Below are positions 74-29,584 of a stretch of 32,314 bases of DNA, one piece after another. Under the pieces are notes generated by a model that worked only from the letters and a program-made list of their open reading frames with translations, did not search any database and was not told the origin of the DNA. This DNA is from Chromatiaceae bacterium (lineage in GTDB: Bacteria; Pseudomonadota; Gammaproteobacteria; SZUA-140), in contig QIJH01000006.1 in the NCBI GenBank assembly GCA_003232725.1, positions 1-32,314 on the forward strand. The letters are read 5' to 3'. Position 1 is the stretch's first letter; each line of letters begins with the position of its first letter. Made by a program: the position numbers and the translations under genes.

Positions 74-814
74 CTAATGGATAAAACCTTGCAGCTTGGT
101 TTCAATACTGCGTGGATTTTCACCTTCAGCAATAGCAACAATCCCGTCAATAATCATTTCACGGAATTTTGTCTGGCCATGAATAATAGCTTTCATCTTA
201 TTCGCCATCGGCAGAAAAAAAAGGTTGGCCAAACCAATTCCATAGATTGTCGCTACGAATGCAACGGCAATGCCTGAGCCTAACTTGCTAGGATCAGAAA
301 GGTTTTGCATCACATGGATCAACCCCATCACCGCACCAATAATTCCGATCGTCGGCGCATAGCCTCCCATCCCTTCCCACACCTTTGCAGCCTGGGTATC
401 ATAATGCTCTTTGGTGTCCAATTCGACTTCCATAATACCGCGAATCGCATCGGGTTCACTGCCATCTACCAGCAGTTGTAGCCCTTTCCTCGCGAATAGA
501 TCCTCTTCATTTTCAGCCAAAGCCTCAAGACCCAGTAACCCTTCTTTACGTGCGATATTGCTCCAGTTAATAATCTTTTCAATCGCCTCCACTGCAGCCA
601 GTTTTGGTGGAAAAATCATCCAGCGGGTTAATTTAAGTGCCTTCATAAAGACATCCATAGTGGTCTGCACAAGAAGGCAGGCAACAGTGCCTCCGCCCAC
701 AATCAAAAATGCAACGGGTAATAACAGTGAGGATAAATGCCCACCCTCTAGATAGTTACCACCAAGAATAGCGATGCCAGCAAGAATGACCCCCGCAATC
801 GTCATCATATCCAT
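74..814 (-). CDS. motC: Flagellar motor stator protein MotC (MotA/PomA family)
   Basis: This is an inner-membrane stator subunit that conducts ions and pushes on FliG to turn the flagellar rotor. The 246-residue protein has the family layout: two N-terminal hydrophobic helices (about residues 5-20 and 29-50), a charged cytoplasmic loop (about 55-145) and two C-terminal helices (about 152-170 and 181-201). The third helix carries the signature YAPTIGIIGAVMGLI, including the conserved Pro154. The gene lies 3 nt after cheB and 12 nt before motD, the Pseudomonas cheA-cheB-motC-motD order. MotA and PomA are equivalent family names; sequence alone does not show whether H+ or Na+ is used. Confidence 0.9.
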   Translation of the reverse strand: MDMMTIAGVILAGIAILGGNYLEGGHLSSLLLPVAFLIVGGGTVACLLVQTTMDVFMKALKLTRWMIFPPKLAAVEAIEKIINWSNIARKEGLLGLEALAENEEDLFARKGLQLLVDGSEPDAIRGIMEVELDTKEHYDTQAAKVWEGMGGYAPTIGIIGAVMGLIHVMQNLSDPSKLGSGIAVAFVATIYGIGLANLFFLPMANKMKAIIHGQTKFREMIIDGIVAIAEGENPRSIETKLQGFIH

Positions 815-817
815 TAA

Positions 818-1885
818 TTATTCCTCCCCGCCAAATAGTGAGGAAATCTTATCGAGCGATAAAATTTCATCCGCCAGATTAGCGTCAACAATTGCCATCG
901 GCATACCATAGACAACACAGCTCTGCTTATCCTGAGCCCAAATAGTTGCACCACGTTGCTTGAGTAAGCGTGCACCTTCTATTCCATCTGCGCCCATACC
1001 AGTCAGGACCATCACCAATAGTTCAGATGAACACACCCTGGCAAGCGATGAAAATGTAATATCAACACTTGGTTTATATGTCTGGTCAGCCTTAGCCTCT
1101 TCAATTTTTAACAGTAAGCGGCTGCCATGCCTATCAATCGTCATCTGCACGCCACCAGGCGCAATATAGGCGACGCCGGCTTTAATTTCATCACCATGAT
1201 CGGCTTGCTTAACGTTAATCTTACATAAAGAATCGAGGCGTTCAGCAAATGACGGGGTAAAACTAGCCGGCATATGCTGAATAATGATCACCGCTACCGG
1301 AAAATTTTCAGGCATTGCGGTTAAGATTTTTTGCAGCGCAACAGGCCCTCCGGTTGAAGTTCCTATCGCAATCAGCTTAATTTTGTTTAAATCAAGACTC
1401 GCATTTTTTTGATTTTTACGCACCGGACTTGATGCCGTTACTGATCGTGAAGATGCAGAATACGAGGCACCTTCTTTAGTCGCTAACGCTCTGCCACCAA
1501 GCACCTTGACCCGCGCACACAGCAAACGTCTGGCAATATCCAGGTCATTCGAAATATCGTCAATTTTTTTAGGTAAGAAGTCGAGCGCACCCGCATCCAA
1601 CGCATCAAGCGTAGATTTTGCACCACTCGTCGTTAATGATGAAAACATTAAAATTGGCGTAGGAATCTCTGCCATTATTTTTCTTGTCGCTGTAATCCCA
1701 TCCATCACCGGCATTTCAATGTCCATTGTAATGACATCCGGACGAAGCTCTCTCATTTTCATGATCGCTTGTGCACCATCAGCAGCGCACCCAACAACCT
1801 CAATGTGCTCGTCAGAGCTCAACATCTCCATCAAGCGACGCCTGAAAAACCCAGAATCGTCAACAACAAGTACACGAACAGCCAC
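818..1885 (-). CDS. cheB: Protein-glutamate methylesterase/glutamine deamidase CheB
   Basis: CheB removes methyl groups from chemoreceptor glutamates, and deamidates certain glutamines, during chemotactic adaptation; CheA activates it by phosphorylation. The N-terminal receiver domain (residues 3-120) has the acidic pair D9/D10, phospho-acceptor D55 in TMDIEMPVMDG, and K106. A variable linker (about 130-165) leads to the esterase domain, with catalytic candidates S177 (IGTSTGG), H204 (IIQHMP) and D300 (GMGADG). The length of 355 residues is normal for the family. It lies between cheA and motC and is probably cotranscribed with them. No cheR is present in the window. Confidence 0.95.
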   Translation of the reverse strand: MAVRVLVVDDSGFFRRRLMEMLSSDEHIEVVGCAADGAQAIMKMRELRPDVITMDIEMPVMDGITATRKIMAEIPTPILMFSSLTTSGAKSTLDALDAGALDFLPKKIDDISNDLDIARRLLCARVKVLGGRALATKEGASYSASSRSVTASSPVRKNQKNASLDLNKIKLIAIGTSTGGPVALQKILTAMPENFPVAVIIIQHMPASFTPSFAERLDSLCKINVKQADHGDEIKAGVAYIAPGGVQMTIDRHGSRLLLKIEEAKADQTYKPSVDITFSSLARVCSSELLVMVLTGMGADGIEGARLLKQRGATIWAQDKQSCVVYGMPMAIVDANLADEILSLDKISSLFGGEE

Positions 1886-1906: not shown

Positions 1907-3868
1907 TCATGCGTATGCAGTTAATAATTCTGGCACATCTAAAATCAATGAAATCTTGCCGTTTCCTGTGATGGTTGCACCCGCTAATCCGCGTGTACCA
2001 TGCAACATCGACCCAAGTGGTTTAATCACCACCTCTTCCTGGCCAATTAACTGATCAACAACAAAACCTACTTGCTGAGCACCAGCACTAACAACAACAA
2101 CATGCCCCTCTTTTTGCTTTTCGCTTCGGCTGGCACCTTTAATCAACCACTCCCTTAAATAGAAAATAGGCAACGCTTTGTTTCTAATTAACACCACAGG
2201 TTGCCCATCGACTACCTTTGACTCAGTTAAGTCAAGATTAAAAATTTCAACCACACTCACTAATGGCAGTGCAAAAACCTGCTCTTCCAGTAACACCATT
2301 AACGTCGGCATGATTGCGAGCGTTAACGGTAGTTTGATTGCAATTCGACTGCCTTTACCCATGGTAGAGTCAATATCAATCGAACCATTGAGCTGAGCAA
2401 TACGCGTTTTAACCACATCCATGCCAACTCCACGGCCAGATATGTCAGAAATTTCTTCCTTTGTCGAAAAACCAGGCATAAATATCAGGTTAAAACACTC
2501 TTTATCATCAAGCCTTGCCGCAGCATCTTCATCGTATAGCCCTTTGCTAACAGCGATGCTTCTTAGTTTGTCCGCATCCATTCCAGCGCCATCATCATCG
2601 ATCGTTAGTAAAATATGATCACCTTCCTGCGCCGCCGACAACACGACAGCCCCTGCGCGATCCTTACCTGCTTTTTCACGGACATCAGGCAGTTCAATAC
2701 CATGGTCAACGGAATTCCGAATGAGATGCACAAGCGGATCAGCAAGTGCTTCAACAAGGTTTTTATCCAGATCAGTCTCTTCACCAATTAATTCAAGGCC
2801 AACTTCCTTCTTGAGGCTTCGCGCAAGATCACGGACCACGCGCGGGAAGCGACCAAATACTTTTTTGATCGGTTGCATTCTGGTTTTCATCACAGAATTT
2901 TGAAGGTCCGTGGTCACCAAATCAAGGTTCGCGACAGCCTGTGTCATCGCCTCATCAGACTTGGTGGATTCTAATGTCGATAGTCGGTTTCGAACGAGTA
3001 CAAGTTCACCGACGAGATTCATAATGTCATCAAGGCGTTTAGTGTCGACACGCACGGTAGTCTCTGCCTGTGCAGGTGCATTCTCTTTCTTTTTCACTGC
3101 CGCTGTAGCAGGCAAAGGTTTAGCTGGAGTGACAGGCTTAACGACCGCTTCAACCTTTACTGCGGGCTGCGCTTCATTTTTCTCTAGCGGTGAATTTTCA
3201 GCCGGCGCTTCAACCTTCGTCATCCCCCCCTTACCATGTAACTCATCTAACAGATCTTCGAATTCACCATCAGTAATTAATCCATCATCTGCTAACCCAG
3301 ATGCTTTCTTTTTCACAACAGATGCATCAGGTTCGACAGCTGTCGGGGCACCTCCACCGTGCAGTTGATCGAGCAATGATTCAAATTCATCATCCGTTAT
3401 ATCTTTACCACTATCAGAAGCGTCAGCGATTTCAACAACAGGCTCAGGAGTTGACGCTGATGCTTGCTCAGGTTCGTCATCCCCAGAAAGAAATCGCTTT
3501 AACGTTTCGATTAGTTCAGGATCAGCTGGTGTTGGATCGGTGCCCTCCCTTACTTCCCCAAACATGTCATTTACGCTATCTGTTACACGTAGAAAAGCAT
3601 CCATCAAAGATGCATCAACCACACGGTCACCTTGCCTTAAAATATTAAAAACATCTTCCGCATGATGACAAACTTCAACCAATGCCGTCAGTGCTAAAAA
3701 CCCAGCGCCGCCTTTAATGGTATGAAAGCCACGAAATACAGCATTCAGTAGCTCGGAATCCTCCGGACTCTGTTCAAGATCAACCAACTGCTCACCCAGC
3801 TTCTCAAGTATCTCGTCTGCTTCGACAAGAAAGTCCTGCAGGATTTCATCATCTGTATCGATCGCCAT
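1907..3868 (-). CDS. cheA: Chemotaxis histidine kinase CheA
   Basis: CheA autophosphorylates at receptor arrays and passes phosphate to CheY and CheB. Domains in order: the Hpt/P1 domain with H49 in FHTIKGGAGF; an acidic and Ala/Pro-rich linker (about 130-270); the P3 dimerisation helices from about 272; the P4 ATPase with N-box HLIRNSVDHG (N385), DDDGAGMD and GRGVGMD; and a C-terminal CheW-like P5 domain (about 515-650). No folded P2 domain is obvious. Instead the linker holds two near-identical acidic peptides (residues 157-171 and 198-212) resembling the CheY-binding peptides of FliM and CheZ. The gene begins 7 nt after cheZ. A length of 653 residues is normal for the family. Confidence 0.95.
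   Translation of the reverse strand: MAIDTDDEILQDFLVEADEILEKLGEQLVDLEQSPEDSELLNAVFRGFHTIKGGAGFLALTALVEVCHHAEDVFNILRQGDRVVDASLMDAFLRVTDSVNDMFGEVREGTDPTPADPELIETLKRFLSGDDEPEQASASTPEPVVEIADASDSGKDITDDEFESLLDQLHGGGAPTAVEPDASVVKKKASGLADDGLITDGEFEDLLDELHGKGGMTKVEAPAENSPLEKNEAQPAVKVEAVVKPVTPAKPLPATAAVKKKENAPAQAETTVRVDTKRLDDIMNLVGELVLVRNRLSTLESTKSDEAMTQAVANLDLVTTDLQNSVMKTRMQPIKKVFGRFPRVVRDLARSLKKEVGLELIGEETDLDKNLVEALADPLVHLIRNSVDHGIELPDVREKAGKDRAGAVVLSAAQEGDHILLTIDDDGAGMDADKLRSIAVSKGLYDEDAAARLDDKECFNLIFMPGFSTKEEISDISGRGVGMDVVKTRIAQLNGSIDIDSTMGKGSRIAIKLPLTLAIMPTLMVLLEEQVFALPLVSVVEIFNLDLTESKVVDGQPVVLIRNKALPIFYLREWLIKGASRSEKQKEGHVVVVSAGAQQVGFVVDQLIGQEEVVIKPLGSMLHGTRGLAGATITGNGKISLILDVPELLTAYA
3233..3400 (-). 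other. Two FliM/CheZ-like peptides in the CheA linker
   Basis: CheA residues 157-171 read ITDDEFESLLDQLHG and residues 198-212 read ITDGEFEDLLDELHG, 41 residues apart in otherwise low-complexity sequence. The FliM of this window has LTQDEIDALLHG at residues 7-18, and its CheZ ends SQDEVDDLLSSLGF. All four share the pattern [ILS]-[TQ]-x-[DG]-E-[IVF]-[DE]-x-L-L, allowing a one-residue shift at the left edge. In E. coli the FliM N-terminus and the CheZ C-terminus are known to bind CheY. A CheY- or CheB-docking role for the CheA copies is inference. Confidence 0.55.
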
Positions 3869-3875
3869 GTTATCT

Positions 3876-4619
3876 CTAGAACCCTAGGCTTGAGAGCAGG
3901 TCATCAACCTCATCCTGACTCTTCAATGCAGTTGCACTCTCTTTTCCGGGTACTTGAGGCCCCTCTAGTACTTTCTCAACCGGCTTTCTCTTTTCTTTTT
4001 TATCATCATCAAAGCTGCCTGAAATTTTAATCAAGCCAATCAATTTATCTTCAACATCTTGTACCAACTCCATGACACGACGAATGATCTGCCCCGTAAT
4101 GTCCTGAAAATCCTGCGCCATTAAAATATCATTCAGGTATCCTTTAATTTTCGTATAGCGATCAGCAGATATCTCAAAATTCTCACCAATTTCACGTGAC
4201 AGATCACGAAACTCATCAGCAGACAGATCACGAGATATAAAACGCTTCCACTGGAGCTCAATCTTTGAAGCACTCTCTTCTAACTCTCGACAGACAGGAA
4301 TCGCTTCTTCAACGGCGGTTAAGGTTTTATGCGCAGCTTGATCAGTCACATCAATCACATGACTGAGACGCTCTCTTGCATCTGGAATTTCATGCTCGGC
4401 AAGGTCTGATATATCAGTTTCAATACCAAAACCAACTAACGTGTCGTGAAGTTCACGTGTTAACCGTCCAATCTCCTGAAACATCTTGGTCTCATTGATA
4501 CGACTAATTTCTCTCAGGTGGCCAATCGCAACATTTTCATCTCCATTCTCTATACTACTGAGCAGGCCCCGTGCCTGAACCAAACATTGTTCACTTAATA
4601 TTGATTCGCTGAATGCCAT
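3876..4619 (-). CDS. cheZ: CheY-P phosphatase CheZ
   Basis: CheZ speeds dephosphorylation of CheY-P and so ends the motor-switch signal. The 247-residue protein is mostly helical, as expected for the long four-helix-bundle dimer. The catalytic signature AQDFQDITGQ is present; D173 and Q177 match the catalytic Asp/Gln pair of E. coli CheZ. A charged flexible linker (about 203-232) ends in the CheY-tethering peptide SQDEVDDLLSSLGF at the very C-terminus. It lies 27 nt after cheY and 7 nt before cheA. CheZ occurs mainly in beta- and gamma-Proteobacteria, which supports the taxonomic reading. Confidence 0.95.
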   Translation of the reverse strand: MAFSESILSEQCLVQARGLLSSIENGDENVAIGHLREISRINETKMFQEIGRLTRELHDTLVGFGIETDISDLAEHEIPDARERLSHVIDVTDQAAHKTLTAVEEAIPVCRELEESASKIELQWKRFISRDLSADEFRDLSREIGENFEISADRYTKIKGYLNDILMAQDFQDITGQIIRRVMELVQDVEDKLIGLIKISGSFDDDKKEKRKPVEKVLEGPQVPGKESATALKSQDEVDDLLSSLGF

Positions 4620-4646: not shown

Positions 4647-5039
4647 TTATTGTGATGCCTCAATTCGCTCAAAAATTTTCTCTATTTTTTCTTTCAGCGT
4701 GGCGGCATTAAATGGTTTAACCACATAGCCATTCACGCCCGCCTGAGCGGCTTCAACAATTTGCTCCTTCTTTGCTTCAGCCGTCACCAGCAGTACTGGC
4801 AGGTTCGCTAATTTTTCATCGGCACGCACCGCTTTCAGCAGATCAATACCTTCCATTCCCGGCATATTCCAGTCAGTGACAAGGAAATCAAAGTCTCCAT
4901 TTTGCAACATCGGCAAGGCAGTATTACCATCATCGGCCTCAGAAGTATTATTAAAGCCAAGATCTCGTAAGAGGTTCTTTATGATGCGGCGCATTGTAGA
5001 AAAATCATCCACAATGAGTATTTTCATGTCTTTATCCAA
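4647..5039 (-). CDS. cheY: Chemotaxis response regulator CheY
   Basis: This single-domain receiver (130 residues) is phosphorylated by CheA and binds FliM to change flagellar rotation. All key residues are visible: D11 and D12 ([10 protein letters not shown]), phospho-acceptor D56 ([11 protein letters not shown]), T86 (LVTAEA), Y105 and K108 (YVVKPF). The sequence closely follows the E. coli/Pseudomonas CheY consensus over its whole length, and there is no output domain. It sits between fliA and cheZ, spaced 16 and 27 nt from them. A start at Met5 would also fit the family N-terminus, but Met1 is kept as the longest reasonable start. Confidence 0.96.
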
Positions 5040-8098: not shown

Positions 8099-10267
8099 CT
8101 ATTCCGGTCTACCAATATTCGAAACAATTTTTATCTGTCTAGTGTCTGGCATTTCGTTATAAGACAACACATGTAAACTCGGTATTGTGTTTCTTACAAA
8201 TTTTGCCAACATTGGCCTCAACGGTGCTGAAACGACTAAGACTGCGGGCTCTCCTGCCATCTCTTGTCGCTGTGTCGACTCCAACAGTGATTGATGAATT
8301 CGTTCAGCCAGTCCTGGCTCTAATCCACCACCACCCTGCATTGATTCTTGCAATAACTGTTCCAAAGATTGATCAAGAGAAATTACAGAAATTTCACTCG
8401 ATAAACCATTGATATTTTGGATAATCATTCTTCCAAGACCAATCCTGACCGCTGCCGTCAGCACGTCAGGATCTTGACTTTTAGTCCCTTCAACCGCAAG
8501 TGTTTCGATAATGGTACGCATGTCCCGGATCGGAATATTCTCCTCCAATAGATTTCGCAATACTTTCTGAATCGTACCCAGCGGCATAATGTCGGGCACT
8601 AGCCCTTCAACCAACTTGGGTGCATTGGCTGCCATACCATCTAGCAAATGCTGAACCTCTTCGCGACCCAACAAGTCATATGCCTGACTTTGCAGTAACT
8701 GGCTGATGTGAGTTGCCACGACGGTACTGGCATCCACGACGGTATATCCCATCGTCTGCGCCTGATCACGTTGAGCGGGATCAATCCAGACCGCATCCAT
8801 GCCAAATGCAGGATCCTTGGTTGGCGTTCCCGCCAAGGTACCAAATACTTGCCCTGGGTTGATCGCCATCTCACGGTCCGGATAGATATCAGACTCGCCA
8901 ACCGTAACGCCCATCAAGGTAATACGATACGCGCCCGGTGAGAGTTCCAGATTGTCACGAATATGCACCGGTGGAATTAAGAAGCCGATCTCCTGCGTCA
9001 GTTTTTTACGAATGCCCTTGATCCGCGCCATCAACTGCCCATTCTGGTTTTTATCAACCAGCGGGATTAATTTGTAGCCAACCTCTAATCCAATCACATC
9101 CACAGGCAATACATCATCCCAGCTCAAATCTTTATTATCATCGCCCGCTTCTTCCGCCGCCCCCGCTGCCTGCCCACCCTGCGGCCCCGGCTGCGCTGAT
9201 TGCCCTCGCTGAGTAACCGCCGGTGAATCACCACTGCGCGGCATAGGCTCGCCGGGGTTAAGCCCCAGCGCCTCTCGTTCAAGTGAGCGCTGATGAATTA
9301 AATAAGCACCACCAGCCGCCAATCCTGCAATCCCCAGGAAGATCATATTTGGCATACCCGGGATTAAACCAAGAATTCCGATGATACCAGCGGTCACACC
9401 AAGCGCCCGAGGGTTAGCAAACATCTGCGTTGAAAACTGCTGCCCCATGTCTTGCTCACTAGAAACGCGCGTCACCATGATCGCGGCAGCGGTGGATAGA
9501 ATCAGTGATGGAATCTGCGCTACCAGGCCGTCACCAATGGTCAGCAAGGTGTAATTGTGCATCGCATCTGGAAATGCCATGTTGTGCTGCAACATCCCAA
9601 TTGACAAACCGCCAATGATATTAATAAAGAGAATCAAGATGCCGGCAATCGCATCACCACGAACAAATTTACTGGCACCATCCATCGAACCATAAAAATC
9701 AGCTTCAGCGACAACCTCTGCGCGGCGGCGCATCGCCTCATCCTGGTCAATCGCCCCCGCATTCAAATCCGCATCAATCGCCATCTGTTTACCCGGCATC
9801 GCGTCAAGGGTAAAACGCGCGCTCACTTCTGAAATACGGCCCGCACCTTTAGTCACCACGATAAAGTTAATAATCACCAGGATTGCAAAAACAACCAGGC
9901 CTACTGCGTAATTGCCACCAACCACAAATTCACCAAACGCCTCAATCACCTGGCCTGCCGCAGCAGTACCGGTATGCCCTTCGAGCAGTACAATGCGCGT
10001 CGAAGCGATATTAAGCGCTAGGCGCAACAGCGTGGCAATTAACAGGATGGTGGGGAAAACAGCAAAATCAAGTGGTTTTTTAGCATAAACCCCAGACAAA
10101 ATGACAATTAATGAAAGCGCAATGTTGAATGTAAAAAACAGATCCAACAGGAGTGGTGGCAACGGCACGACCATCATTGCCAAAATCGATATTAATAATA
10201 GCGGCGCTCCAATCAGCCCATTGCGACTGATTTGACGCGCGGTATCACCTAAACTTGCTTGAGCCAT
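8099..10267 (-). CDS. flhA: Flagellar export gate protein FlhA
   Basis: FlhA forms the nonameric ring of the flagellar type III export gate, which couples proton flow to secretion. The 722-residue length is in the family range. The N-terminal half contains about eight hydrophobic helices and the family signature ISEVSARFTLDAMPGKQMAI, followed by DADLNAG. A Gly/Ala/Gln-rich linker (roughly residues 340-375) joins it to the cytoplasmic domain, which begins near SWDDVLPVD and would dock substrates and chaperones. The gene starts 9 nt after flhB, so it probably shares the export-gate transcript. Confidence 0.96.
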   Translation of the reverse strand: MAQASLGDTARQISRNGLIGAPLLLISILAMMVVPLPPLLLDLFFTFNIALSLIVILSGVYAKKPLDFAVFPTILLIATLLRLALNIASTRIVLLEGHTGTAAAGQVIEAFGEFVVGGNYAVGLVVFAILVIINFIVVTKGAGRISEVSARFTLDAMPGKQMAIDADLNAGAIDQDEAMRRRAEVVAEADFYGSMDGASKFVRGDAIAGILILFINIIGGLSIGMLQHNMAFPDAMHNYTLLTIGDGLVAQIPSLILSTAAAIMVTRVSSEQDMGQQFSTQMFANPRALGVTAGIIGILGLIPGMPNMIFLGIAGLAAGGAYLIHQRSLEREALGLNPGEPMPRSGDSPAVTQRGQSAQPGPQGGQAAGAAEEAGDDNKDLSWDDVLPVDVIGLEVGYKLIPLVDKNQNGQLMARIKGIRKKLTQEIGFLIPPVHIRDNLELSPGAYRITLMGVTVGESDIYPDREMAINPGQVFGTLAGTPTKDPAFGMDAVWIDPAQRDQAQTMGYTVVDASTVVATHISQLLQSQAYDLLGREEVQHLLDGMAANAPKLVEGLVPDIMPLGTIQKVLRNLLEENIPIRDMRTIIETLAVEGTKSQDPDVLTAAVRIGLGRMIIQNINGLSSEISVISLDQSLEQLLQESMQGGGGLEPGLAERIHQSLLESTQRQEMAGEPAVLVVSAPLRPMLAKFVRNTIPSLHVLSYNEMPDTRQIKIVSNIGRPE

Positions 10268-14134: not shown

Positions 14135-15142
14135 CTACCCCATCACTGTTTTCAGCTTTTTCGAACTCTCAGCCACTACACGCTCTGTAATTTTGATAGC
14201 ATTTTTTCCATCAGATACTCCAAAACTTCCTCTAAACACGGGTATATCTTCAACACGAATAGTGACCTTATCCGGCAAATTGATCGGAATAATATCTCCA
14301 GCTCTCAGAGCATTAAGATCATTAAGTGAAATTTCCGTTTCTGTTAAAATACTGCTGATTTCAACATCAGCCTCTTTAATCTCCTCCACGAGCGCAACTG
14401 CCCAGCGATCATCATTATCATCACGATCACTCTGCACACCCGCATCTAATAACTCACGAATAGGCTCTACCATTGAATAAGGTAAAGTCACATGAAGATC
14501 ACCACCACCACCATCAAGTTCAATATGAAATGTTGTTACCACCACCACTTCACTTGGACTTACAATATTGGCAAAGTGAGGATTCACCTCCATTCCTTGA
14601 AATGAAAAATCAACAGGCAACACAGGATTCCATGCTTCTTTCATGTCTTTAAAGCTAAGATCAAGCATCAGTTGAATGATTCGCTGCTCTGTTGGCGTAA
14701 ATTCTCGTCCTTCAATCTTGGCGTGAAACTTTCCTTCACCACCAAAAAAATTATCTACCACAGTAAAAACAAGTTTGGGATCAAACACGAATAACCCGGT
14801 GCCTCGTAATGGCTCAACTTTTACAAGATTCAGACTTGCCGGGACAAACAAACTGTGAACATATTCGGCAAACTTCAACATCTGAACACTACCGACAGAT
14901 ATTTCAGCTGTTCTACGCAGCATATTGAAAAGACTAATGCGAAAGTGACGTGCAAAACGCTCGTTGATCATCTCCAATGTGGGCATACGCCCACGAACAA
15001 TCCTATCCTGACTGTTAAAGTCATATTCATGAGCCTTTCCATCATCTAGAACTGCGTCATCTTCTGACTCAATATCGCCGCCAGTAACACCGTGGAGCAG
15101 CGCATCAATTTCATCTTGTGTTAACAGATCATTTACAGACAT
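14135..15142 (-). CDS. fliM: Flagellar motor switch protein FliM
   Basis: FliM is the C-ring subunit that binds CheY-P and passes the switch signal to FliG. The N-terminal CheY-binding peptide LTQDEIDALLHGV (residues 7-19) is clear. The middle CheC-like domain contains LEMINERFARHFRISLFNML, and the C-terminal SpoA domain fuses to FliN. The 335 residues match the family. It lies 14 nt after fliL and 5 nt before fliN. Its N-terminal peptide is the reference for the two look-alike peptides in the CheA linker of this genome. Confidence 0.97.
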   Translation of the reverse strand: MSVNDLLTQDEIDALLHGVTGGDIESEDDAVLDDGKAHEYDFNSQDRIVRGRMPTLEMINERFARHFRISLFNMLRRTAEISVGSVQMLKFAEYVHSLFVPASLNLVKVEPLRGTGLFVFDPKLVFTVVDNFFGGEGKFHAKIEGREFTPTEQRIIQLMLDLSFKDMKEAWNPVLPVDFSFQGMEVNPHFANIVSPSEVVVVTTFHIELDGGGGDLHVTLPYSMVEPIRELLDAGVQSDRDDNDDRWAVALVEEIKEADVEISSILTETEISLNDLNALRAGDIIPINLPDKVTIRVEDIPVFRGSFGVSDGKNAIKITERVVAESSKKLKTVMG

Positions 15143-25845: not shown

Positions 25846-26462
25846 AACTACACCCCTCTTACTGACTATTTCCGCCCGTTTAATGGATTTATCAATCCGC
25901 GATCTCAATAATTAAAATATAAGACATTATTTGTCAAAAACAACCAAATAACTGAATTAAATTCATTAAACCTAAAGCCCTTAGGCTCGAAAATTCTGAA
26001 TCAGCCTTTACAAAAAAGATGGGGAGTAACTCTTTAATAATACTGGCAACCCGGATCCATCTCTCAATAAACCCTGGATCCCGGCTAAAAAAACCACCTG
26101 AATGACTAGTCAAATGACAAATATTTACTTAACGAGACCTTTGCATCACCTTAAGCAAACTCCGTTCCGCTTAGGTATCAATATTGCACCCCGGATACTC
26201 GGATACTCGGATACAGAACCAGACCCAAGCCCAGGAGAACTAGTTGCCCCCAGGCTTTCCAACACAACGTTTAACTATCAATACCGACGGATCAGTCTGA
26301 ACTAAAAAACCACCTACACATATTGACCTTGCTATAAATATTGCTTACATTGCACAGACTATCAAATGAACAAGGAGAGTTCGTAGTTTATCTGAACACA
26401 TAAAGCACCACACAAAGTGTAAGCTTTGATGATGGGTGCCCCCACTCAAACAAGGAATAGTT
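25846..26462. other. Intergenic region upstream of the lodA-like gene
   Basis: No gene is supported. The sequence is AT-rich and contains a short tandem repeat of CGGATACT (three units, 26192-26214, the last incomplete). A candidate promoter for the oxidase operon lies at 26323-26351. A GAGACCTTTGCA motif at 26134-26145 resembles an insertion-sequence end, but no partner was found. Confidence 0.55.
26323..26351 (+). promoter_or_regulatory. Candidate promoter of the lodA/lodB-like operon
   Basis: TTGACC (26323-26328), a 17-nt spacer and TACATT (26346-26351) fit a sigma-70 promoter: five of six and four of six consensus bases. It would give a leader of about 105 nt before the ATG at 26463. No operator was recognised. 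Confidence 0.35.
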
Positions 26463-28502
26463 ATGAGCGATAAAAAAGATAAATCAGGCGTTACTCGCAG
26501 AGATTTCCTCGCCACCACCGTTAGCGCTGCATCATTAGCCTGCTTTCCCTGGATACCTAAGGCGGCAGTGGCCAAACCTTCAGCGGAAGCGGCGCCGAGA
26601 GGTGCCGCAATTGCCAGGCTTCGCATCTACCCAGCGATCGGTATTTGCCGTGTTGGCGGTAGCGAACAATGGTTTCTTGCCCCTGAAGTACCGGGTCTTC
26701 CACCGCACCCAGAGGGTGGTTATAAAGACGGTGACAGTAAAATTAAAAAGCAAGTGCAACGTTTTCGAGTTTATGCGTTTGATAAAGAAAATCGCGTTAT
26801 CGGCGAGATCACCGCTAAAGAGCACGCTATCAACTGGAGTGTGCATCTGGCCAACACCAAAGCGGCGTGGTACGGGTTTAATAATCCATTAGATAATGGT
26901 GAGCGTGCGCCCGGCTTGCCCACACAGAAACGTAATCAGTACTTTGTGTCCAATGAAAAACGTGAACGGATGCTAGTGATTGATGGCAAGAAAAAAACCA
27001 TTAAGGGCAAACAGACTAACCCTGACGGCAAGAATCCTGAGTACGCATTTGAAGGTAAATTCTGGGACAAGCAGACAGTCGGCCTTGGTGATTTGCGCAC
27101 GGACACAGCTGGGCGGCTGTTGGTGTTTCCACCTGATGGTCAATCAGATTCGCCTAATAGTGTCGCTATTACCAGTTTCGCAGACAATGATGGCTGGCAT
27201 GACGACTGGTGTGATGGCCCAGTCACTGCGAACGTAACGATAAAAGGTAAGCGGTTTGAGGCTGAGTCATCGTGGGTAGCTTGCGTGGGCCCAGACTTTG
27301 CGCCAGAAATTCCACCAATCACCACACTTTATGATGTAATTGCTGACTTGAATCATCAACAGAAATGGACACAAGCGTCAAACGGCCCACTTTCGTTCCG
27401 CAAACATATATACCCCACCTTCCGTCGTACAGCACTCATGAAGTGGGTGAACAACGCCGCAAACCAGCGCGAAGGTTGGTTACCAGGTATGGTGGACCTT
27501 TCCGATGAGCAGGTGATTAAAAAGCTGGCCGACCCAAGCAAGCAGAATGAGCCGTTTCGAAAATCAGTACTGGAATTTTTTCGCGATCCAAACAAGCAAG
27601 GTGATGAGGCCTACAAAGAGCAACGCCTGAAAATCCCCTATATGATGGGTGACGGGGTGAACTACGACGGCAGCCCACTGCAGTGGTTTCAGTTTCCACT
27701 ACTGCAATACAGCTACCTACAAGCCTGGGCGGCGGGTGATTTCATCAACGACTTCGACGATGACGAGCTCAAGCCTATCCGCTCTCTCGATGACATCCCT
27801 TTACAGGATCAGCCCGCCTCACTCACCGAGGCCGCGCTCGAACCCTGCTCCGGCGGTGCCTTTCACCCCGGTGTGGAGCTGACCTATTATCTACGCCTTG
27901 CCCCCATGTATGCGCGCAATTATGACCACAGCGCAGAGCCGTTTCGCATTGCACATAAAGACAGGGGCCGCTTCGTGCAAAACATCGGTCGCTTGTTAAC
28001 ACCAGAAAAAGCCTTCGAGGGTGGCGATAGTGCACCGCCTCCGATTGGCTACCAAATGGCAGGGGATCTGACCCGCTGGATGGGATTACCCTGGCAATGT
28101 GATGCATTCAGTTGCCAACAGGTCTTGTTGCAGGAGAATTTTCCAACAGCCGTCTGGTGGCCAGCACTACTGCCGATCGATGTGCTAACTGAGGAAGACT
28201 ATACCTTGCTGATGAACAAAGAGCTGTCGGACACACAAAGGATCAAGTTCTTTAATACACGAGAAGCCTGGTCAAGAGATGTGGCCGGTATCGGCTACCA
28301 TGCAAATGCCAGCTACTGGGATGGAATTACTAATATGATCATACTCTGGGAGCGAATGGGATTTGTGTTAAAACGACCAGGGCCTAAAGGCGAGACAAGT
28401 CTCGATGGTGTACCCGAAGAGGTGTTTGTTGAAGTGGGTCGAGCCGATACGATGGAGTTTCGCTTTAACTGGAAACCCAGAGACGGCATGTTGCCAAACT
28501 AG
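26463..28502 (+). CDS. LodA-like CTQ amino-acid oxidase with Tat signal
   Basis: This 679-residue protein is of the LodA/GoxA family: quinoproteins that oxidatively deaminate amino acids (lysine, glycine), releasing peroxide and ammonia, using a cysteine tryptophylquinone made from their own residues. The best cofactor candidates are Cys462 (EPCSGGAFHPGVELTY) and Trp539 (GDLTRWMGLPWQ). The family start LRIYPAIGICRVGGSEQW is at residues 53-70. Unusually, the N-terminus has a twin-arginine signal: TRRDFL (11-16), a hydrophobic stretch and AVA before residue 38. The ATG at 26463 is preferred, with AAGGA 6 nt upstream. The next gene, 2 nt downstream, is the LodB-like maturation flavoprotein. The substrate cannot be read from sequence. 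Confidence 0.87.
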   Translation: MSDKKDKSGVTRRDFLATTVSAASLACFPWIPKAAVAKPSAEAAPRGAAIARLRIYPAIGICRVGGSEQWFLAPEVPGLPPHPEGGYKDGDSKIKKQVQRFRVYAFDKENRVIGEITAKEHAINWSVHLANTKAAWYGFNNPLDNGERAPGLPTQKRNQYFVSNEKRERMLVIDGKKKTIKGKQTNPDGKNPEYAFEGKFWDKQTVGLGDLRTDTAGRLLVFPPDGQSDSPNSVAITSFADNDGWHDDWCDGPVTANVTIKGKRFEAESSWVACVGPDFAPEIPPITTLYDVIADLNHQQKWTQASNGPLSFRKHIYPTFRRTALMKWVNNAANQREGWLPGMVDLSDEQVIKKLADPSKQNEPFRKSVLEFFRDPNKQGDEAYKEQRLKIPYMMGDGVNYDGSPLQWFQFPLLQYSYLQAWAAGDFINDFDDDELKPIRSLDDIPLQDQPASLTEAALEPCSGGAFHPGVELTYYLRLAPMYARNYDHSAEPFRIAHKDRGRFVQNIGRLLTPEKAFEGGDSAPPPIGYQMAGDLTRWMGLPWQCDAFSCQQVLLQENFPTAVWWPALLPIDVLTEEDYTLLMNKELSDTQRIKFFNTREAWSRDVAGIGYHANASYWDGITNMIILWERMGFVLKRPGPKGETSLDGVPEEVFVEVGRADTMEFRFNWKPRDGMLPN

Positions 28503-28504
28503 GT

Positions 28505-29584
28505 ATGAATTACCCTCGTGTTGCCGTGATTGGCGGTGGTATTGCTGGCGCAGTTGCCTGTTTGCGTCTTGTCGATTCAGAGGCTCAGCTGCTCTGGATC
28601 GCACCCATAGACAACGTTCACGATAAATATGGCGAGCACCTGTCAGCGGCTGCTCGCCCGCTGCTGGAGCAGGTCAATGCACTTGGCCTGCTCGAACGCC
28701 CATACCACCGCCAGGCCAATGTCATACTGTCATCCTGGGGCTCTGATAAGATCGCTGAGCGTCATTCGATAGTCCACCTGGAGGGGCCGGGCACCGTTAT
28801 CAATCGTCGCGCTTTTGAACAGGACCTCGCAGATGAAGTCAGTCATCGTGGTGTGACACGAAGAGATGTCATGCTCAAGGACGCCCGCCTTAATCAAGGC
28901 CATTGGCAACTGGAACTTGAAGATGGAAGTGAGAAAGTGGATTACCTTATTGACGCCAGTGGCCGCCATGCCATCATTGCCAAACAATATGCGCCCCGTT
29001 TTCGCTCCGACCAACTTGTCGCAGTCATCGCCTTTCTTGAACAGAATGCCGCCGCCGATATTGTACCCACCCGCGCGACGCTGATAGAGGCGGTTGCCGA
29101 TGGCTGGTGGTACGCAACATTATTGGCTGATGGTCGGCTAGTCCTCAACTACTATACTGACCCCGATCTGCTACCCACAGACATCAGCAGAGAAACGAGT
29201 GTGTTTAATCGTCTGCTCAGACAGACACGATACATTGATCGTTGGATTAACGAAGCCGAGTTTGAGTTAAAATCCCCGCCCCGTCTTGCCAGTGCAGGCA
29301 CAACCTGGATCGCACCAGCAGCAGGAGAAAGCTGGATTGCCGTTGGCGATGCAGCCGCCTCTTTTGACCCACTGTCGTCGCACGGTATGACCACCGCACT
29401 CTGGACCGCGATTACCGGTGCCGATGCCGCAATTGCCTACCTGTCCGGAAACCGTGAACCATCTATCGGCTATACAGGTAAAGTCGCCGCCGGAATCCAG
29501 GAGTTCCTGAATTCACGCACCACTATCTATCAGCAGGAAAATCGTTTCAAAGAGAACACGTTCTGGGAGCGACGTATAAAATAA
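28505..29584 (+). CDS. LodB-like FAD-dependent maturation protein
   Basis: This 359-residue flavoprotein is related to tryptophan halogenases and geranylgeranyl reductases. It has a dinucleotide-binding GGGIAG (10-15, the GxGxxG site), DYLIDASGR (147-154), GWWYATLLADGR, and GDAAASFDPLSSHGM (281-295) for FAD contact. LodB is known to be required to build the CTQ cofactor of its partner LodA, and these proteins are encoded next to their oxidase, as here. The ATG is 2 nt after the lodA-like stop without a strong ribosome site, so translation is probably coupled. It lacks a signal peptide, which fits maturation in the cytoplasm before export of the partner. Confidence 0.87.
   Translation: MNYPRVAVIGGGIAGAVACLRLVDSEAQLLWIAPIDNVHDKYGEHLSAAARPLLEQVNALGLLERPYHRQANVILSSWGSDKIAERHSIVHLEGPGTVINRRAFEQDLADEVSHRGVTRRDVMLKDARLNQGHWQLELEDGSEKVDYLIDASGRHAIIAKQYAPRFRSDQLVAVIAFLEQNAAADIVPTRATLIEAVADGWWYATLLADGRLVLNYYTDPDLLPTDISRETSVFNRLLRQTRYIDRWINEAEFELKSPPRLASAGTTWIAPAAGESWIAVGDAAASFDPLSSHGMTTALWTAITGADAAIAYLSGNREPSIGYTGKVAAGIQEFLNSRTTIYQQENRFKENTFWERRIK

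Follow-up and report, generated by a model that had tools for sequence, protein, structure and literature searches.

How a chemotaxis kinase keeps its response regulator close when its linker shows no folded CheY-binding (P2) domain is the question raised by the cheA gene of this locus. CheY of Escherichia coli binds P2 with an affinity of about 0.5 µM and isolated P1 with one of about 900 µM (PMC5705603), so the docking site matters. The window, i.e. the whole stretch of 32,314 nucleotides that was analysed, carries a chemotaxis and flagellar cluster on its minus strand, in the order cheY, cheZ, cheA, cheB and a motA/exbB-like gene. The features relevant here are as follows.

74-814, minus strand: motA/exbB-like gene
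818-1885, minus strand: cheB (receiver and methylesterase), candidate second ligand
1907-3868, minus strand: cheA, 653 aa, F6-type; from Pfam domains and AlphaFold2, P1 (Hpt, aa 8-100), linker (about aa 129-268), P3, P4 and P5
3065-3484, minus strand: predicted disordered P1-P3 linker (aa 129-268) with both motifs and without P2
3233-3277, minus strand: putative docking motif 2, ITDGEFEDLLDELHG, aa 198-212; predicted helix 200-210, block mean pLDDT 80
3356-3400, minus strand: putative docking motif 1, ITDDEFESLLDQLHG, aa 157-171; predicted helix 159-169, block mean pLDDT 76
3876-4619, minus strand: cheZ (Pfam CheZ); putative CheY-binding tail SQDEVDDLLSSLGF at 3879-3920
4647-5039, minus strand: cheY, presumed ligand; binding-face residues Q94, V103, Y106, K117, K119 and R126
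14135-15142, minus strand: fliM (Pfam FliM); putative CheY-binding head LTQDEIDALLHG at 15089-15124

Another contig of the same organism (C62) encodes ParC, a CheW-like reading frame beside it and a motB-like gene. Taken with the window genes, this fits the F6-class arrangement, in which cheY-cheZ-cheA-cheB is accompanied by motor genes, parC and parP, the last represented here by a CheW-like gene; the class of this CheA was assigned from neighbourhood and tree, not from published class models. Elsewhere in the window, 26436-29584 encodes a quinone-cofactor oxidase pair: first a LodA-like lysine epsilon-oxidase, then a LodB-like flavoprotein of the halogenase family.

The linker between P1 and P3

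The sequence-only reading had pointed out two near-identical acidic peptides in the CheA linker. Their coordinates were exact and their similarity is far beyond chance. Aligned with each other, the two copies score 64 (BLOSUM62), while the best scores in 300 shuffles of the linker had a mean of 24.3 (sd 3.9) and a maximum of 41; the pair is therefore not a product of acidic linker composition. At the DNA level the copies are identical at 30 of 45 positions.

The same reading had described the linker as lacking a folded P2, and three kinds of search agree with it. A Pfam scan of this CheA matched P1, P3, P4 and P5 and gave no match for the P2/CheY-binding domain (PF07194, PF09078), for which the profiles are insensitive, as is also stated by Berry et al. 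2023 (PMC10782961). PF09078 had zero matches over the Pfam cut-off across 140 genomes. Profile-profile alignment (hhalign) of the linker with the P2-position domain of a second CheA type yielded no match (0.9% probability). In an AlphaFold2 model built on an 84-row alignment (mean pLDDT 83), P1 and P3-P5 were folded, with blocks mostly at about 90 or above, and residues 130-270 were disordered (pLDDT mostly 33-56). The sole ordered stretches there were helices 159-169 and 200-210, which coincide exactly with the two motifs, and the model placed no folded domain between P1 and P3. A shallower model from eight close relatives told little, having a mean pLDDT of 36, and showed the same two helices at low confidence.

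CheAs without a recognisable P2 make up more than half of the total in a published survey, where their linkers are treated as unstructured and P2 as dispensable (PMC10782961). The CheA of Pseudomonas putida has been treated as carrying a P2/CheY-binding domain in one study (PMC11978298). The second CheA type of gammaproteobacteria, to which the second CheA of this genome (L026) belongs, is devoid of the motif; at the P2 position it has a block of some 85 conserved residues, and in the surveyed loci this domain and the motif never occur together in one CheA. Since the block had no sequence match among solved P2 chains, its identification as P2 is based on where it lies and on published work.

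Conservation and copy number of the motif

Conservation was surveyed in 140 CheA loci, 60 from a class-wide draw of 140 genomes and 80 named loci, a list that may count some genomes twice (L102 and L138). At least one motif copy was found by a fixed pattern in 92 of the 140 loci, six of the 92 having less than 55% identity in P3-P5. Every complete CheA that reached 55% identity in P3-P5 (86 of 86) carries the motif, in one to four copies; the only two motif-less CheAs at this level (L101 and L107) are incomplete, being truncated at a contig end or interrupted by N. The peptides are therefore conserved in relatives. Motif-bearing CheAs occur in Pseudomonas, Vibrio, Shewanella, Alteromonas, Chromatiales, Xanthomonadales and others, and the class-wide consensus is [IM][ST][DE]xEF[ED]xLLDxLHG. 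Apart from the motif, these linkers vary in length and sequence and have a high content of Ala, Pro, Lys and Glu.

Three copies are present in each of the eight readable congeners, compared with two in the window species. In the latter, the sequence that follows the first copy is similar to that following the second copy of its sister species, the pattern expected from unequal recombination, by which one copy may have been lost; alternatively, the repeat may have collapsed during assembly. The motif is under purifying selection. Codon differences among congeners, in pairwise counts that are not independent, were 193 synonymous versus 24 non-synonymous for the first copy and 154 versus 60 for the last.

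In a quick maximum-likelihood tree of P3-P5, built without bootstrap, the gammaproteobacterial motif CheAs cluster together and adjoin motif-less betaproteobacterial CheAs. A small adjoining group (Acidithiobacillus, G142 and Tibeticola) has the motif in two of three members, and motif presence and absence needs four changes on this tree.

Other linkers carry short elements of their own. Two CheAs outside the F6 clade (L127 and L184; about 40% identity) have one or two divergent motif copies. Nine betaproteobacterial linkers (L170, L171, L174, L181, L182, L183, L185, L207 and L211) have in common a short element, approximately DWxxLxxxVTG, which is possibly a different docking peptide of betaproteobacterial F6-like CheAs. 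Linkers of Campylobacterota (L172, L173, L176 and L200) contain one or two copies of MSxEEVEAEIERLL, with a FliM-like AEIERLL core, and four CheAs from several phyla (L188, L189, L190 and L205) have GEILVxxGxIxxxxLxxALxxQ repeats between P1 and P3.

Resemblance to CheY ligands and changes in CheY

The motif fits the FliM/CheZ-type consensus, an acidic [S/T]-x-x-E-[IVF]-[DE]-x-L-L, and, like such peptides, is predicted by AlphaFold2 to form a short helix within disordered sequence. A BLOSUM profile built from CheA motif copies (236 instances, 206 distinct) was run over about 25,200 reading-frame windows of this sequence. Outside CheA, the FliM N-terminus ranked first with a score of 28.9, the next window scoring 19.9. 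The CheZ tail scored 16.0, a value reached or exceeded by nine of 25,203 windows, and over 83 loci its median p was 0.001. Conversely, a profile built solely from FliM heads put CheZ and CheA in the first two places among about 124 neighbouring reading frames for 61 of 85 loci, and both within the first three for 77; this ranking counts reading frames, and the CheZ window is the C-terminal tail among the matches listed. In 86 of 92 loci, the best-scoring CheA window fell within the linker. A reverse test with a longer CheZ-tail profile was weaker than the FliM test, placing CheA at a median rank of 6 of 123. The proposed alignment of the CheA peptides with the FliM head and the CheZ tail holds for FliM, the best match outside CheA, and less closely for CheZ, whose match is high but weaker.

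Such likeness has to be read with care, because FlhA and DNA ligase A also match and short acidic helices resemble each other cheaply. FlhA (LLGHEEVQQLL) is a regular false positive of the FliM-head profile. The window frame at the FlhA position (8099-10267) contains a conserved LLG[HR]EEVQxLLD, the commonest false positive of FliM-type profiles, which is probably part of a folded domain. DNA ligase A, the sole match of the motif profile in a PDB set of chains of 20 residues or more, was rejected as chance. A narrow repeat profile made from congeners matched CheA alone in its own genome and was too specific for any verdict on FliM or CheZ.

The three peptides also differ. Like the N-terminal CheY-binding peptide of FliM (LSQDEIDALL), the CheA motif is an acidic amphipathic helix in a disordered tail, built on an E-[I/F]-[D/E]-x-L-L core; unlike it, the CheA motif has F for I and an extra D-x-L-H-G, is internal and repeated, and is a putative CheY ligand. 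With the C-terminal CheY-binding peptide of CheZ (QDxVDDLLSSLGF) it has in common its acidity and an x-L-L-x-x-L-[G/H] core, but the CheZ peptide is strictly C-terminal and single, and the resemblance is weaker. The motif-bearing linker resembles CheA P2 (PF07194, PF09078) in lying between P1 and P3 and in its presumed role in CheY docking; P2, however, is a folded domain, whereas the linker is a predicted disordered tether with 11-residue helices.

CheY itself differs with the kind of CheA beside it. Next to motif CheAs, CheY has Q94 in 77, V103 in 79, K117 in 72 and R126 in all of 80 cases. Nine betaproteobacterial CheYs whose CheA has no motif all have N94 and A103, and none has K117 or R126; these loci still keep CheZ tails. 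CheY of E. coli, which works with a P2-type CheA, has N94, A103, E117 and K126. According to Ortega et al. (PMC7184735), R92K, Q94N, V103A and K117E were among the changes that occurred in the E. coli lineage when an F6 CheY was recruited to a P2-bearing F7 CheA, and R92K, Q94N and V103A were explained as P2 contacts. To this picture our survey adds that the F6 CheA carries these motifs and lacks P2. In the sequences compared, CheY positions 94, 103, 117 and 126 track the motif, a correlation over very few evolutionary contrasts, and partners other than CheA could lie behind the residue changes.

Proposed CheY docking and alternative roles of the motif

We consider it probable, at roughly two chances in three, that the two linker peptides act as short linear motifs for CheY docking in place of a folded P2. 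Each motif, E-F-[ED]-x-L-L-D-x-L, would form a short amphipathic helix within the disordered tether between P1 and P3, and would fit into the alpha4-beta5-alpha5 groove of CheY, the site of the FliM N-terminus and the CheZ C-terminus. CheY bound in this way would be kept near phosphorylated His49 of P1, and multiple copies may raise the local concentration and favour rebinding. We infer all three elements, namely physical binding of CheY, the groove used and the gain in phosphotransfer. One face of CheY is common to CheZ and FliM, according to a paper citing Guhaniyogi 2008 (PMC3774744).

Conservation, position, predicted disorder with two helices, reciprocal resemblance and co-variation of the CheY face all argue for the core of the earlier idea, that FliM/CheZ-type peptides replace P2. 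Its restriction to this genome did not hold, the motif being a class property of gammaproteobacterial F6 CheAs. The wider statement is somewhat better than an even bet: that in gammaproteobacterial F6 systems kinase, phosphatase and motor would all hold CheY by the same kind of peptide, with one to four copies in CheA replacing P2, and that the binding face of CheY was altered as CheY passed to a P2-bearing kinase in the E. coli lineage. The open papers searched name no CheY-binding motif in a CheA linker and contain no match to the motif letters, although subscription papers may differ; the accessible part of the survey text on P2-less CheAs (PMC10782961) does not mention a linker motif either.

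Two observations complicate docking. Betaproteobacterial F6-like CheAs have neither the motif nor a recognised P2. The FliM and CheZ peptides favour phosphorylated CheY, and a dock on the kinase should prefer the unphosphorylated form; the CheA motif would therefore be tuned differently or have another role. The F that replaces I/V and the DxLHG tail suggest themselves as candidate tuning features.

A division of labour among copies, in which a single copy would serve ParP or CheB and the rest CheY, or a peptide common to several partners, overlaps with docking and has perhaps one chance in four. The copies do differ consistently, the last copy of congeners having an L-I-T start and an HGKG-type tail, and copy number ranges from one to four; but single-copy CheAs exist (L079, L080, L084, L143 and L152), and the E-F-x-x-L-L-D core is common to all copies.

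It is rather unlikely that the motif is instead the CheA localization and inheritance domain (LID) or its core, keeping CheA in polar arrays by binding to the CheW-like AIF domain of ParP, without a job in CheY docking. In Vibrio, according to two papers, the LID of CheA binds ParP, sits before P3 and is confined to species with ParC and ParP (PMC7534058, PMC5706961). The motif lies in the same stretch of Vibrio F6 CheAs, between P1/P2 and P3 as described for the LID and in the same CheA class, and the LID may contain it because little else in the F6 CheA linker is conserved. The window organism, moreover, has ParC with an adjoining CheW-like protein, and betaproteobacterial loci without the motif are also without a nearby ParC. 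However, the motif is also present where ParC and ParP were not found: searches gave no homologue of either in five genomes with motif CheAs (Dyella acidisoli, Dyella monticola, Allochromatium palmeri, a Hydrocarboniphaga MAG and a complete Acidithiobacillus genome). In a sixth genome without a match (G032) the motif is degenerate. Three further genomes that have ParC gave no match for ParP; the ParC result is the stronger one, because the ParP search misses divergent ParPs. ParP is thus unlikely to be the sole reason for the motif, whose resemblance is to CheY ligands and which CheY residues track, although some copies may serve ParP.

That the helices have no separate partner protein, acting within CheA (on P1, P4 or another motif copy) or forming a SHOCT-like helical unit, is very improbable: weak SHOCT (PF09851) matches (E 0.036 and 0.0018; 14.3 and 18.4 bits) speak for it but fall under the Pfam gathering score of 27 bits, the motif is not C-terminal, and spacing between copies varies freely.

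If the docking interpretation is true, Pseudomonas, Vibrio and Shewanella would have a main chemotaxis kinase that docks its messenger in a manner unlike the E. coli textbook model, and the CheY substitutions reported at the kinase switch in the E. coli lineage could be given a different reason. On the wider statement about kinase, phosphatase and motor, CheY signalling in the gammaproteobacterial F6 lineage would be a competition among short motifs.
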